A DNA stretch of 64,000 nt from NCBI RefSeq assembly GCF_024498195.1, contig NZ_CP101824.1, forward strand, positions 1,798,001-1,862,000, read 5' to 3'. The stretch's first letter is position 1; each line of letters opens with the position of its first letter. Position numbers and translations under genes: made by a program. The stretch is from Halovivax cerinus. Its GTDB lineage: Archaea; Halobacteriota; Halobacteria; Halobacteriales; Natrialbaceae. Positions 43,894-50,748 of this stretch are shown here, piece by piece. The notes under the pieces are model-generated. The model was not told where the DNA came from. It worked only from the letters and a program-made list of their open reading frames with translations, and made no database searches.

Positions 43894-44408
43894 TTCGACC
43901 GGTCGCTCGATTCGCCGCCGCGACCGAAGGTCCGTACGTGACCGTCGACCGGTGACGTGTGATCTCTGTCCTTCACTCGCCGGGGCGTCTCGTCGTTGTC
44001 CGATGGCGATTCCGACGCGTCGGTTGGATCGTCCGTACTCCGCCGTCGGCCACCGTCCGTTCGCGCCGAGCGACCCTCGTGGTAGCGGTCGAACGTGCGT
44101 TCGGGGCCCTCGACTGGCGACGTGTGATCCCTGTCTTTGACCCGTCTCGGGGTATCTCCCCCGCTGCTTCGGCCGTTCGCCGACGGCCCGCTGATGTCAC
44201 TCGCTGGCGTGGGATCGACAGCCGCTCGAGCGTCGCCCTCACTCGCGTCGGTCGGGTCGGGTCGGTGCGTTTCTGCCTCGGTTCGGTCGTGATGTTCTGT
44301 CTCCTCTGACATGGTCTCGCAGGTTCGGTCGCTTCTCGGTTCGGTTCCGGCCGCTCCGCCGTCTCGGGTCGGGTCCGGGTCGTTCGACGATCGGTTCGCG
44401 TCGCTCAT
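43890..44408 (-). CDS. Disordered 172-aa protein with a duplicated motif, inside the ilv-leu operon
   Basis: Coupled at both ends: its ATG overlaps the ilvC stop (TGATG, 44406-44410) and its stop overlaps the leuC ATG (43890-43893). The protein is low-complexity, rich in Arg, Asp, Glu, Ser, Thr. It contains [14 protein letters not shown] twice, at residues 86-99 and 141-154, each followed by an Arg-Thr-Phe triplet. No enzyme fold visible. Position suggests a role in branched-chain amino acid synthesis or simply a translational bridge. Confidence 0.7.
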
Positions 44409-45802
44409 CACTCGCCCTCCGCGTCGCCCCAGGCGAACAGCGTTCGCAGTTCGGCGCCGACGCGCTCGATCTCGTGGTTCGCTTCGGCCTCGCGATACTG
44501 GGTGTATGCCGGCCGGTTCGCCTGATTCTCGTTGATCCACTCGCGAGCGAACTCGCCGTTCTGGACGTTCGTCAGGATCTCGTCCATTCCATCGCGGTCG
44601 ACGACGCTCTCGCCGCGGGTGAGGCCGCCGTACTCGGCCGTGTCGGAGACCGAGTTCCACATCTCCATGTGGCCACCCTCGTACAGCAGGTCGACGATGA
44701 GCTTGAGTTCGTTCAGACACTCGAAGTACGCCATCTCGGGCGCGTACCCCGCCTCGACGAGCGTCTCGAAGCCAGCCTTGATCAGGTCGGTGACGCCGCC
44801 ACAGAGGACGGCCTGCTCGCCGAAGAGGTCGGTCTCCGTCTCTTCGCGGAACGTGGTCTCGACGACGCCGGCGCGCGTACACCCGAGCGCGTCGGCGTAC
44901 GCAAGCGCCTGCTCGCGTGCGGTCCCGGTCGCGTCCTGGTAGACCGCCAGCAGGCCGGGCGTCCCCTGGTCGTTCTCGTAGTTACGACGGACCAGGTGGC
45001 CCGGCGACTTCGGCGCGATCATCGTCACGTCGACGCCCTCTGGCGGCGTGATCTGGTTGTAGTGGACGTTGAACCCGTGGGCGAACTGCAGGGTATCGCC
45101 CGGTTCGAGGTTCGGTTCGATCGACGCCTCGTAGACGTCTGGCTGGACCGTGTCCGGGAGCAGGACGCTCACGACCGACGCCTGCGCTGCGGCTTCGTCC
45201 GGCGTCGCGACTCGCAGACCGTCTTCCTCCGCGGCTGACCAGGAGGAACTATCCGCCCTGAGACCGACGACGACGTCGACGCCGCTCTCGGCGAGATTCT
45301 GCGCGTGTGCGTGGCCCTGCGAGCCGTATCCCAGGACGGCTACCGTCTCCCCGGAAATGTACTCCCTGTCGGCGTCCGCCTCGTAGTAGACTGTCGCGTC
45401 GAACGATGGCGACTCGTCGTCGACGTCCGTGCCGCCATCCGTGACGACTCGCTTCGGTCGTTCGGTTTCACCGTTGGTCCTCGCTCCGTCCACTGTCGTC
45501 TCGTGCGTCACGTCGTTCGCCGTCGTCCCGTCAGTCACGTCGTCCATTGTAATACTCTCAGTCACGTCGTTCAGCGTCGTCTCGTCCAGTACCGCCGTCG
45601 TAACCGTTTCCGTCGATCTGCCGGCGGTCGTCGTCTCGTCCCCTGTCGGTTCGCTGGTCGTCCGTTCGGATACCGTGACGGTCGTCCGTTCCGTCTGCCG
45701 TTCGGCCATCCGATCGACCGTCCGCTCGTGGTTGGTCCGTGCGTCGTCTGTCTGTCTTGTATCGTTCATGTAGTGGTCTGGTGATCTCTGTCTCGTTCTC
45801 AC
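44408..45802 (-). CDS. ilvC: Ketol-acid reductoisomerase with long N-terminal extension
   Basis: 464 aa from a GTG at 45802 that overlaps the ilvN stop (GTGA); an ATG at 45769 is the alternative. The enzyme core begins near residue 134: Leu-Gly-Tyr-Gly-Ser-Gln-Gly-His-Ala (157-165) is the NADPH motif, and Ala-Pro-Lys-Ser-Pro-Gly-His and Phe-Glu-Cys-Leu-Asn-Glu-Leu-Lys-Leu follow. The first 120 residues are Thr/Glu/Asp-rich with degenerate Asn-Asp-Val-Thr-type repeats. Typical archaeal/bacterial class I IlvC is about 330-350 aa, so this extension is unusual. Confidence 0.93.
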
Positions 45803-46566
45803 TTGGTCGGACGTCGCTCACCGCCGTCCGTTCGGGCCGCTGGTTCGGTCGGCACAGCACTCCCGTCGTCAGCGCTCGGTTGGGCCGTCCGCTCCCGGTC
45901 GTCGGTATCACAGCCTGGTGCAGGTTGTTCGCCCGGGGTCGTCGGCACGTCACCGCGCGCGAGGGCGGTTTCCCCTGTGCGAGCGATCTCGACGATGCCG
46001 AACTGTCGGTAGGCGTCGATCGCGGCGTCGATCCGTGCCTCGTCGCCGGTGAGCTCGACGGTGATCGTCCGCGGACCGGCGTCGAGCGTCTCGCCGTCGT
46101 ACATCTCGGTGATCGCCTGGACCTGTTCCGGGGCGTCGCCGCGGACCTTCACGAGGACCAGTTCGCGGGAGACGGTCTCTCCCGCGATCTCGCCCGCCGA
46201 GATGACGGCCGAAAGCTTTCGGAGCTGTTTTTTGAGCTGGTCGATGCCCGGGTCGGTCTCCTCGACGACCATCGTGATCCGGGCGTGGCCGTCCACGGTC
46301 GTCGGTCCGACGGTCAGGCTCTCGATGTTGAACTGCCGGCGCGAAACAAGGCCGGACACTTGCGCGAGTACGCCCGGTTCGTGATCGACCAGGGCGGAGA
46401 CGACCGCCCGGCGGGGTTCGTGCTCGGCCTCGACGACAGGATCGATCCGTATCCCGTCGGTGTTTCGTCGTGCCTCCGGGTGTGGCCGCTCGGACGGGGC
46501 CTGACCGGGAAGACTGGCGTTCTGTTCGCTCTCGTCGTCCGATCGACCTGTACCGTCGCCGCTCAT
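45799..46566 (-). CDS. ilvN: Acetolactate synthase regulatory (small) subunit
   Basis: 255 aa from the ATG at 46566, overlapping the ilvB stop by ATGA. The ACT domain is at about residues 52-125 ([16 protein letters not shown], then Asn-Ile-Glu-Ser-Leu-Thr-Val-Gly) and a second, ACT-like C-terminal part follows. It confers valine feedback control on IlvB in bacteria. Both termini are low-complexity extensions, like several proteins of this operon. Confidence 0.92.
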
Positions 46567-48440
46567 AGGTGGTCCTCCGAGAGCGCGAACTGGCCGTTCG
46601 CCCCACCGCTGGGGACCATCGGCAGGACGTTCTCCTCCGGATCGACGTGAAAGTCGATCACTGACGGGCCGTCGTAGTCGAGTGCCGCCTCGACGGTCGC
46701 CGGGACGTCGTCCCGATCGTCGACGCGGAAGCCACGCGCACCGAACGCTTCTGCGAGGGTATCGAACGCCGGCACCCAGTCGTACTCCGAGGCCATCCGG
46801 CGGCCCTCGAAGAAGGCATCCTGCCACTGGCGCACCATACCGATGTGCTCGTTGTTGAGGACCGCGATCGTGACGTCGAGATTCTCACGAACGGCGACCG
46901 ACAGCTCCTGTATCGTCATCAGGAACGAGCCGTCGCCCTCGAAACAGACGACGTCGCGGTCTGTCTCACCCGCCTCGTCCGCGGCGATTCGCGCCCCGAT
47001 AGCTGCCGGAAGACCGTATCCCATGGTTCCCAGCCCGTGTGAGGACACCCAGGTGCGCGGCTCGGTGAACGTCCAGAACTGACAGGCCCACATCTGGTGC
47101 TGGCCGACGCCGGTCGTCACGATCGTGTCGTCGGCCGTGGCCGCGTCGAACGCCTCGACGACGAACTGCGGTTTCAGCGGCTCGTGGTCGTTCATCGCGT
47201 ACGTAAGCGGATACGTCTCTTTCCACTCCGTACACTGTGTGCGCCAGTCCTCGGCAGCCGGTGGCGATTCGATCGCGGCCGACACCTGTTCGAGGACGGC
47301 ACCCGCGTCGCCGACCAGCGGATAGTCCGCGTGGACGTTCTTGCTGATCTCGGCCGGATCGATGTCGACGTGAATCACGTCTGCCTCGGGCGCGAACGTA
47401 TCGATGCCGCCCGTCAGGCGGTCGTCGAACCGGGTTCCCACGGCGATCAGGCAGTCGGTGTGCGTAATCGCCATGTTCGCGTAGCCGGTGCCGTGCATGC
47501 CGGCGAACGACAGCGCCAACTCGTCGTCCTCGGGGAACGACCCGAGACCCGGCATCGTCGTCGTCACGGGGATCTCGTACGTGCGCGCGAAGGTCGTCGC
47601 GACGTCGCTCGCATCCGCCGCGACGACGCCACCGCCGAACAGACAGACCGGCCGTTCGGCCGATTCGATCGCTCGAGCGGCCGCCTCGACGCCGTCGGGA
47701 TCGGCGCGCGGGTTCCGTTCACCGTCCGATCGAGCCTCCGTCGACGTCGTGTCGTCGAACTCGGCGTGCTCGTCGACGTCGGCGAGCGAGACGTCCTTCG
47801 GGAGGTCGACCAGCGTCGGTCCCTGCCGGTCGCACCCGGCGCGACGAAACGCGTCTTCGACGACGGCACCGATGGTGTTCGGATCGTCGGCGAACGCGTT
47901 GTACTTCGTGATCGGGCGTGTGACGCCGATAGTGTCCGTCTCCTGGAACGCGTCGTTGCCGACGAGGTCCCTCGGGACCTGTCCCGTCAGCGCGAGCATC
48001 GCGTCGGAATCCATCTTGGCGTCGGCGATGCCGGTGACGAGGTTGGTCGCACCTGGCCCGGAGGTGGCCAGGCAGACGCCCGGTTCACCCGCGACGACCC
48101 CGTACGCGTCGGCCGCGTGGGCGGCCGCCTGCTCGTGAGCCATGGTCACGTGCCGGACCGACGACGACGCCAGCGCGTCGTACACGGGCATGATCGCCCC
48201 GCCCTGGATCCCGAAGGCCGACTCGACGCCGGACGCTTCGAGCGCCCGGGCGATGGCCTCCGCGCCGGTCGAGACGGGACCGTCGTCGTCCGTCTCGTGT
48301 GATCGATCCTGGTTCGTCTCCTCCTGTCGGGGATCGCTCTCGTCGTTCCGTGCAATTCCATCGTCGGTCGAATCCGCCGCTGCACCCCGACTTGCCGTTT
48401 CGTCTGTGTACTCTCTGTGCCTCGGCTTCGCGTCTGTCAT
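46563..48440 (-). CDS. ilvB: Acetolactate synthase catalytic subunit
   Basis: 625 aa, thiamine-diphosphate enzyme. Gly-Ile-Gln-Gly-Gly-Ala-Ile-Met-Pro (near residue 77), His-Glu-Gln-Ala-Ala-Ala-His-Ala (catalytic Glu), Ala-Thr-Ser-Gly-Pro-Gly-Ala-Thr-Asn, and the ThDP motif Glu-Gly-Asp-Gly-Ser-Phe-Leu-Met with Asn-Asn-Glu-His-Ile-Gly. Condenses pyruvate or 2-ketobutyrate. A 55-residue acidic N-terminal extension is present. First gene of the operon; upstream lie a leader-peptide candidate and hairpin (48571-48669). Confidence 0.95.
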   Translation of the reverse strand: MTDAKPRHREYTDETASRGAAADSTDDGIARNDESDPRQEETNQDRSHETDDDGPVSTGAEAIARALEASGVESAFGIQGGAIMPVYDALASSSVRHVTMAHEQAAAHAADAYGVVAGEPGVCLATSGPGATNLVTGIADAKMDSDAMLALTGQVPRDLVGNDAFQETDTIGVTRPITKYNAFADDPNTIGAVVEDAFRRAGCDRQGPTLVDLPKDVSLADVDEHAEFDDTTSTEARSDGERNPRADPDGVEAAARAIESAERPVCLFGGGVVAADASDVATTFARTYEIPVTTTMPGLGSFPEDDELALSFAGMHGTGYANMAITHTDCLIAVGTRFDDRLTGGIDTFAPEADVIHVDIDPAEISKNVHADYPLVGDAGAVLEQVSAAIESPPAAEDWRTQCTEWKETYPLTYAMNDHEPLKPQFVVEAFDAATADDTIVTTGVGQHQMWACQFWTFTEPRTWVSSHGLGTMGYGLPAAIGARIAADEAGETDRDVVCFEGDGSFLMTIQELSVAVRENLDVTIAVLNNEHIGMVRQWQDAFFEGRRMASEYDWVPAFDTLAEAFGARGFRVDDRDDVPATVEAALDYDGPSVIDFHVDPEENVLPMVPSGGANGQFALSEDHL

Positions 48441-48570
48441 GTGCGCATGTTCTCGGTAGGTTCGCGTGGGAAACTCGAACGCGAGCCGCGACGGCGATGG
48501 CCGGTGAAACCGACTCGACAGCCGCGTCGCTTGCGTTCGACGATACGTCCGGTCGGTGAGAATGGGGTGA

Positions 48571-48592
48571 TGTAGGGGACTAGGCCCCTACA
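48571..48592 (-). promoter_or_regulatory. 8-bp hairpin at the end of the ilvB leader ORF
   Basis: On the minus strand TGTAGGGG (48592-48585) pairs with CCCCTACA (48578-48571) around CCTAGT, which contains the leader-peptide stop TAG. A ribosome at the last codons would melt the stem. It lies about 130 nt before ilvB. Confidence 0.6.
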
Positions 48593-48669
48593 ATAATCGA
48601 ACCGCCGAGAATCGCAGCGACCGCTCCCGTGGCCGCGAACTGGACGTGCGTGGGAGCGTTCGGTCGCAC
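48580..48669 (-). CDS. Candidate ilvB leader peptide, Ile/Leu/Val-rich
   Basis: 29-codon ORF from GTG (48669) to TAG (48582-48580), reading Met-Arg-Pro-Asn-Ala-Pro-Thr-His-Val-Gln-Phe, then Ala-Ala-Thr-Gly-Ala-Val-Ala-Ala-Ile-Leu-Gly-Gly-Ser-Ile-Ile-Val-Gly-Ala. Seven residues after the start are Ile, Leu or Val, with Ile-Leu and Ile-Ile-Val near the end, just before the hairpin. The GTG lies 30 nt from a TATATA box, as for a near-leaderless transcript. This matches the logic of ilv attenuation leaders in bacteria, which I do not know to be described for archaea. Expression unproven. Confidence 0.55.
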   Translation of the reverse strand: MRPNAPTHVQFAATGAVAAILGGSIIVGA

Positions 48670-48677
48670 TGTGCTCT

Positions 48678-48711
48678 GGCGAAAGCAGGCCGTTCGTATA
48701 TAGCTTTCGCC
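48678..48711. promoter_or_regulatory. ilvB promoter: TATA box framed by a perfect 9-bp inverted repeat
   Basis: TATATA at 48697-48702 is the clearest TATA box of the region. GGCGAAAGC (48678-48686) and GCTTTCGCC (48703-48711) are perfect inverted arms spaced 16 nt, enclosing the TATA box and the segment towards the start site. This is a good operator candidate for a repressor that blocks TBP/TFB. Confidence 0.6.
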
Positions 48712-50637: not shown

Positions 50638-50675
50638 CGAATTCGCGCCTCGCTGTCGCTCGGCGCAGAATTAGT

Positions 50676-50748
50676 GGGCTCGGGCGGATTCGAACCACCG
50701 ACCTCGGCCTTGTAAAGGCCACGTCATAACCAGCTAGACCACGAGCCC
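50676..50748 (-). tRNA. tRNA-Val (UAC)
   Basis: 73 nt. Acceptor GGGCTCG/CGAGCCC, anticodon stem TGGCC/GGCCG with loop TTTACAA (anticodon TAC), T stem GGTGG/CCGCC with one G-T pair around TTCGAAT. No encoded CCA. A hairpin with arms AATTC-GCGCC/GGCGC-AGAATT lies directly downstream at about 50639-50673 and may help termination. Confidence 0.95.

Follow-up and report, generated by a model that had tools for sequence, protein, structure and literature searches.

Does the short open reading frame (ORF) upstream of the acetolactate synthase gene ilvB in Halovivax cerinus control this operon through the ribosome that translates it? Such ribosome-mediated attenuation is known from bacterial leaders, e.g., those of ilvGMEDA, ilvBN, trp, pheA and pheST. 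A first-pass annotation, made from the sequence without database searches, had proposed a leader of this type combined with a repressor site. Its elements (a 29-codon ORF, a TATA box, a hairpin at the stop codon and an inverted repeat around the TATA box) are all present in the window, i.e., the whole stretch of 64,000 nucleotides that was analysed, and the start codon of the ORF is the GTG at 48669, with the transcript start being inferred only.

The gene order on the minus strand is leuA, leader, ilvB, ilvN and ilvC, with the families checked by profile searches (Table 1). The true start of ilvN is probably located further downstream than that of the annotated ORF. The leader ends with the codons ATT (48597-48595), ATT (48594-48592), GTA (48591-48589), GGG (48588-48586), GCC and TAG. 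Note that a gene for tRNA-Val (TAC), the reader of GTA, is located at 50674-50748, upstream of leuA and in the same orientation. The IlvB proteins of the genus are ~71-78% identical to Halorubrum-type proteins from another family, versus ~66-70% to the listed proteins of their own family; judged from these identities, the ilvB operon may have been acquired by transfer together with its leader.

Table 1. Features of the ilvBNC locus in the window (position 1 is the first letter of the window).
Feature	Position	Strand	Remarks
TATA box (TATATA)	48697-48702	minus	33 nt from the first base of the hexamer to the leader start codon
Leader ORF, 29 codons (VRPNAPTHVQFAATGAVAAILGGSIIVGA, then stop)	48580-48669	minus	GTG at 48669, TAG at 48580
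Putative regulatory codons ATT ATT GTA (Ile Ile Val)	48589-48597	minus	5' edge of the hairpin; based on conservation and codon usage
8-bp hairpin (TGTAGGGG-CCTAGT-CCCCTACA)	48571-48592	minus	stop codon in the loop
Stem 1, 5' arm (GCGACC and GCTCCC)	48652-48667	minus	structure prediction
Stem 1, 3' arm (GGGAGC, GGTCGC)	48617-48628	minus	~20 nt ahead of the Ile codons; structure prediction
G-free pyrimidine-rich tract	48555-48570	minus	adjoins the 3' side of the hairpin; candidate termination region
ilvB, acetolactate synthase, large subunit	46563-48440	minus	TIGR00118, 667 bits, above cut-off
ilvN, acetolactate synthase, small subunit	45799-46827	minus	TIGR00119 and NF008864 above cut-off, residues 140-293
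ilvC, ketol-acid reductoisomerase	44408-45802	minus	TIGR00465 above cut-off

To follow the leader through the haloarchaea, the best 80 of 269 IlvB loci from named genomes, a sample biased towards close relatives, were combined with those of the five genomes of the genus, among them the genome of the window. Two of these 85 loci (L019 and L069) were left out, as their contigs end before the leader. All 83 ilvB loci with upstream sequence possess the leader, 82 of them with the core AT(T/C)-GTA-GGG-G; the remaining one (L050) has GTC-GTA-GTA-GGG-G and was recognised only with a widened pattern. In five of the 83 (L041, L044, L045, L047, L065), the stop codon lies beyond the hairpin and the ORF reads through the stem. 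A covariance model of the core (R1), built from 79 sequences, matched 286 of the 292 genomes of the class Halobacteria and 74 of its 77 genera (E ≤ 0.01); IlvB was found in 291 of these genomes. The position of the match was checked in 107 genomes, not in all 286, and in each of these 107, i.e., those with both matches listed, it shares the strand of IlvB and precedes it by 87-300 nt. Furthermore, 30 extra loci were hand-chosen from other families, six of them since the model had no match there. The leader is present in 26 of them, 23 being recognised by pattern and three (L116, L118, L121) by eye, and it is absent in four (L128, and L135-L137, in which leuA abuts ilvB). Given this conservation, the combination of ORF and hairpin is, on comparative grounds, far beyond chance, and the alignment with relatives that the first-pass annotation had suggested as a check of its leader-peptide reading turned out in favour of it. 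Outside the class, the model gave ten weak matches (E ≤ 0.001) in a phylum sample of 392 genomes. Four of the ten were examined (L138-L141), and no match to IlvB, IlvN, IlvC or LeuA was present within the 5 kb taken; the best one is antisense to an ORF that reads as dapA-like (no family search was made). A leader outside the class was not accepted on the basis of these matches.

The ORF has the properties expected of a translated sequence. When a TATA-like hexamer was picked blind to the reading frame and a start codon was then sought 29-34 nt away, 76 of the 83 loci turned out to have one. Every one of these 76 codons shares its frame with the conserved end (one third expected), with the reservation that related loci are not independent cases. 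Of the 83 loci, 43 have an offset of -33 from TATA box to start codon, and 29 have one of -31. The leaders, 23-55 codons long, stop with TAG (49), TAA (20) or TGA (14), whereas the stop codon of ilvB is TGA at 81 of 83 loci; thus, it is the stop function that is kept and not one trinucleotide. We judge it very likely that the leader is translated and acts in cis, the latter on the basis of a dN/dS of ~1.2 outside the last codons, even without transcript, ribosome or reporter data. Its transcript is probably leaderless or nearly so, as far as the inferred transcription start allows.

The end of the leader is remarkable for its codons. The Val codon is GTA in all 83 leaders, compared with 0.5% of the 4002 Val codons of the ilvB genes at the same loci, and the preceding Ile codon is ATT in 60 of 83 leaders, compared with 6.4% of 1958 Ile codons in these genes. 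In L118, Leu-Val-Leu-Val replaces Ile. As GTA is kept even where the stem falls short of it (e.g., L041, L045), pairing alone does not explain its presence. We infer with good confidence that the supply of Ile and Val is sensed by pausing of the ribosome at these codons.

Similar leaders precede genes for tRNA ligases. Secondary matches of R1 led to valS, and 16 genomes were then examined. A valS leader was found by eye in 13 of the 16 loci (none in L154, L156 and L157). Nine of these leaders are of the ilvB type and have Val codons at their end, with GTA and with GGGG, but lack the Ile (MDESVTECRFDGSRGAVLVGAV followed by the stop in the window's own genome); the other four have 9-10 codons with GTA GTA CGT and stand ahead of another type of ValS. 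In front of pheS, a leader ending in a run of Phe is present in 13 of 16 loci (MTSESRRRCVARQPPRSRSGFGFFLAR and stop in the own genome, with TGA within the hairpin loop), and in front of trpS2, which encodes a TrpRS paralogue (NF008927), a Trp-rich leader is present in 10 of 10 loci (MISALIWRWRRPSRADSVDVVPVAA and stop in the own genome). For ileS, only one of 16 loci (L164) has a leader, which ends in SPIIAGQ before the stop and shows the same layout. No cognate leader was found with the same kind of script for tyrS (0/16), trpC (0/16), hisG (0/16) and the long TrpS (0/11), and no Leu-rich leader resembling that of ilvB was found in the leuS-type regions L177-L192, which were placed from weak ValS matches and are perhaps not all leuS. 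Five of these regions (L177, L184, L188, L189, L191) have a conserved ATGGAAAG-TAT-like element before the gene, without Leu codons. Note also that a long conserved block (GTTTCGACGGATGTATTG...) is located downstream of the valS leader hairpin in L148-L151 and L158, and that ACGTATCGTCGAACGC, which follows the ilvB hairpin in the window, is somewhat like it.

As the pheS and trpS2 leaders were chosen by their residue content, their enrichment is inflated, and a control matrix was used as a guard against that. The test for Phe was met in 13 of 16 pheS loci and in 0-1 loci of the other sets, the test for W.W in 10 of 10 trpS2 loci (other sets, 0-2), and the test for GTA with two Val in 11 of 16 valS loci (other sets, 0-3). 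Off-target matches occurred in trpC (3/16 for GTA, 1/16 for Phe), valS (2/16 for W.W, 1/16 for Tyr) and trpS2 (2/10 for three Val), so that single matches of this kind are no evidence. The most enriched residue is Ile and then Val in the ilvB leaders, Val in the longer valS leaders, Phe for pheS and Trp for trpS2; Val is outranked by Arg and Ser in the short type of valS leader (four loci). The codon in the leader thus follows the gene behind it, a correspondence that is difficult to account for unless the ribosome acts as the sensor. Kept frame, start and stop, a drifting peptide body, the invariant GTA and cognate leaders at valS, pheS, trpS2 and one ileS lend further weight to the leader peptide proposed at the outset.

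Small ORFs ahead of genes of this kind have been reported before. In Haloferax volcanii, the uORFs in long 5'-UTRs with mapped starts include one of 26 aa before pheS and one of 23 aa before a gene for a Trp-tRNA ligase (PMC4983044, Table 2). The former and our pheS leader L208 both have 26 aa and a pI of 5.9, with masses of 2772 and 2822, respectively. The uORF section of that paper contains neither amino acid content nor an attenuation reading, and ilvB1 is not in its table.

The stop hairpin is present in the minimum free energy fold, with z = -2.5 for 48530-48670 and one of 200 shuffles equally stable. No covariation was found in the alignment of 79 sequences because the core of the stem is near constant. 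In three loci outside this alignment, however, which belong to two families (L113 in one, L116 and L121 in the other), GGGCC..GGCCC stands for GGGGC..GCCCC, so that the fourth pair is altered on both sides; the fifth pair is C-G in 45, U-A in 22 and U-G in 2 of the 83 loci and unpaired in 14. RNAalifold predicted the stop hairpin in all four clades tested and, likewise in all four, stem 1, in which the 5' end of the leader pairs with a segment ~20 nt before the core. The Natrialbales-type set and that of Haloferax have pairs of stem 1 in which both partners differ, and the longest helix of this stem has 7.1 bp compared with 5.7 in shuffles, a modest excess. A competing pairing of the segment before the core with a downstream GCGAC was sought and could not be established, nor could any alternative antiterminator pairing. 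Rfam gave no match to the leader at E up to 10, and none at the gathering threshold in 8 loci; no family in Rfam covers it.

Behind the 3' arm of the hairpin, G is found with a frequency of 0-2% at nearly all of positions 1-13 (83 loci), compared with 27% and 24.5% further downstream and 34% in the body of the ORF. Within 100 nt behind the hairpin, 31 of 83 loci have TTTT, versus 4.3 ± 2.0 in mononucleotide shuffles, most commonly in the context CCGTTTTCA; at the locus in the window, only TTT is present. In a reporter of H. volcanii, a T stretch ending at C terminated 95% of transcripts, and one tested hairpin terminated 59% (PMC7237163).

Several other explanations were considered for these data. 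The least credible of them, which we practically discount, is that the ORF encodes a functional small protein. The short hydrophobic C-terminus seen in many loci would suit it, but dN/dS outside the last codons is ~1.2 (~1.19 for 25 distinct 24-codon leaders of Halorubrum and near relatives) and not under the column-shuffle null of 1.06 ± 0.26, with 74 of 100 shuffles at or below the observed value. Lying within the spread of the null, this ratio points to an absence of purifying selection on the peptide body, and a stable functional peptide was rejected for that reason; the wide range of lengths and a synonymous choice fixed at GTA also disagree with it. It is very improbable as well that GTAGGGG..CCCCTAC is an untranslated element, i.e., a protein-binding operator or a riboswitch with the ORF as a by-product. 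The near-invariant hairpin core would be typical of a binding site, but a start that is in frame in every one of the 76 cases, the use of all three stop codons, the varying spacing between the half-sites, the matching of codon to gene at valS, pheS and trpS2 and the missing Rfam match all stand against it. Hardly better is the prospect of an operator for a repressor acting together with the leader, the second part of the original proposal. The inverted repeat around the TATA box of the window (GGCGAAAGC, 48711-48703, with GCTTTCGCC, 48686-48678) is indeed perfect over 9 bp, but none of the four congeners has a repeat of at least 6 bp at the same stretch. Being confined to the genome of the window, it was rejected as a repressor site or transcription-factor operator, and this part of the first-pass annotation had to be given up. 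All five genomes of the genus (the window and L082-L085) have a TTGCA-like hexamer upstream of the TATA box (GTTGCG at 48720-48715 in the window), possibly a regulator site.

More serious, even if we consider it unlikely, is an output at the level of translation, in which the same leader and the same pause of the ribosome control access to ilvB, reinitiation or mRNA processing instead of termination, in some clades by means of a second small ORF. Such an ORF ends at the ATG of ilvB as ATGA in L041, L044, L045, L047, L050 and L065 and is also present in the Haloferax loci L063, L080 and L071; the overlap suggests translational coupling, and runs of T are not universal. On the other hand, the 139-nt gap between leader and ilvB in the window has no second small ORF except one of three codons, and both the G-free tract that adjoins the hairpin and the surplus of T-runs resemble termination signals. 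Premature termination of transcription at the hairpin and the pyrimidine tract is the output that we favour, with reserve, as termination is inferred.

Taken as a whole, the data are best read as ribosome-mediated attenuation by a leader peptide, to which we assign a probability of roughly 0.7. The transcript would start close to the GTG, and the first ribosome would translate the short leader, in which no coding content is conserved except the Ile/Val codons ending in GTA at the 5' edge of the GGGG/CCCC hairpin. In a shortage of charged tRNA-Ile or tRNA-Val, the ribosome would pause on ATT ATT GTA and cover the 5' arm; the hairpin would be blocked and RNA polymerase would go on into ilvBNC. 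If the charged tRNAs are plentiful, the ribosome would reach the stop codon and depart, the hairpin would form and, together with the G-free pyrimidine tract (and the T-runs further down in many species), would stop transcription, either intrinsically or with the help of the termination factor FttA/aCPSF1. Coupling of transcription and translation has been reported in haloarchaea (PMC8576121). Comparison shows that the ORF is conserved together with its frame, its start codon and a stop in or just past the hairpin, as are the codon identity, the promoter geometry, the hairpin and the tract, and that codon and gene match in the other leaders; regulation, transcription start, pausing and termination are inferred and were not measured. 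Some points speak against attenuation. Classical bacterial leaders carry more regulatory codons than the 2-4 present here. The hairpin core is invariant, the ribosome must translate through the hairpin in five loci, T-runs of at least four are present in only 31 of 83, the leader is absent in L128 and L135-L137, and ilvB1 is missing from the uORF table mentioned above.

The haloarchaeal leader resembles bacterial attenuators in its short ORF, in cognate codons near a hairpin and in preceding a gene for biosynthesis or for a tRNA ligase. It differs in its archaeal promoter with a start codon ~31-33 nt from the TATA box (probably leaderless), in having only 2-4 regulatory codons with one invariant rare codon, and in a stop codon that usually lies inside the hairpin loop, without a classical terminator with a long U tract. 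As far as comparative features go, it belongs to this class; its functional features are inferred. In the TnaC system, a ribosome held at the end of the leader controls termination by Rho. Similarly, a ribosome held at the end of the haloarchaeal leader could shield the C-rich tract from a termination factor; unlike with TnaC, there is neither an inducer nor Rho, and FttA would have to fill the part of the latter. A conserved uORF or leader before ilvB or ilvBNC is also found in Corynebacterium, a bacterium, namely the uORF of ilvB-II (PMC10272879) and the ilvBNC attenuator (PMC11857589). The first-pass annotation had been aware of no such leader in archaea. According to a 2021 paper, no mechanism of transcription attenuation or antitermination was known in archaea (PMC8448881), and no report of an archaeal leader-peptide attenuator was found in the open-access literature; most subscription papers and all preprints were outside this scope, and prior work is possible.

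We lean towards the view that ribosome-sensing attenuators form a regulon and that most of the class possesses it. It would comprise ilvBNC (Ile/Val), valS (Val), pheS (Phe), the trpS paralogue (Trp) and, in one sampled genome, ileS (Ile), and each leader would read the charging of its own tRNA and set premature termination by the archaeal RNA polymerase. These findings suggest that salt-loving archaea sense amino acid shortage via a pausing ribosome, a strategy known in bacteria and not reported in archaea. Should the inferred mechanism hold, archaea possess attenuation, and they do so with a eukaryote-like RNA polymerase and on transcripts that are probably leaderless; the coupling of transcription and translation as well as regulated premature termination would then become testable in a genetically tractable system such as Haloferax.
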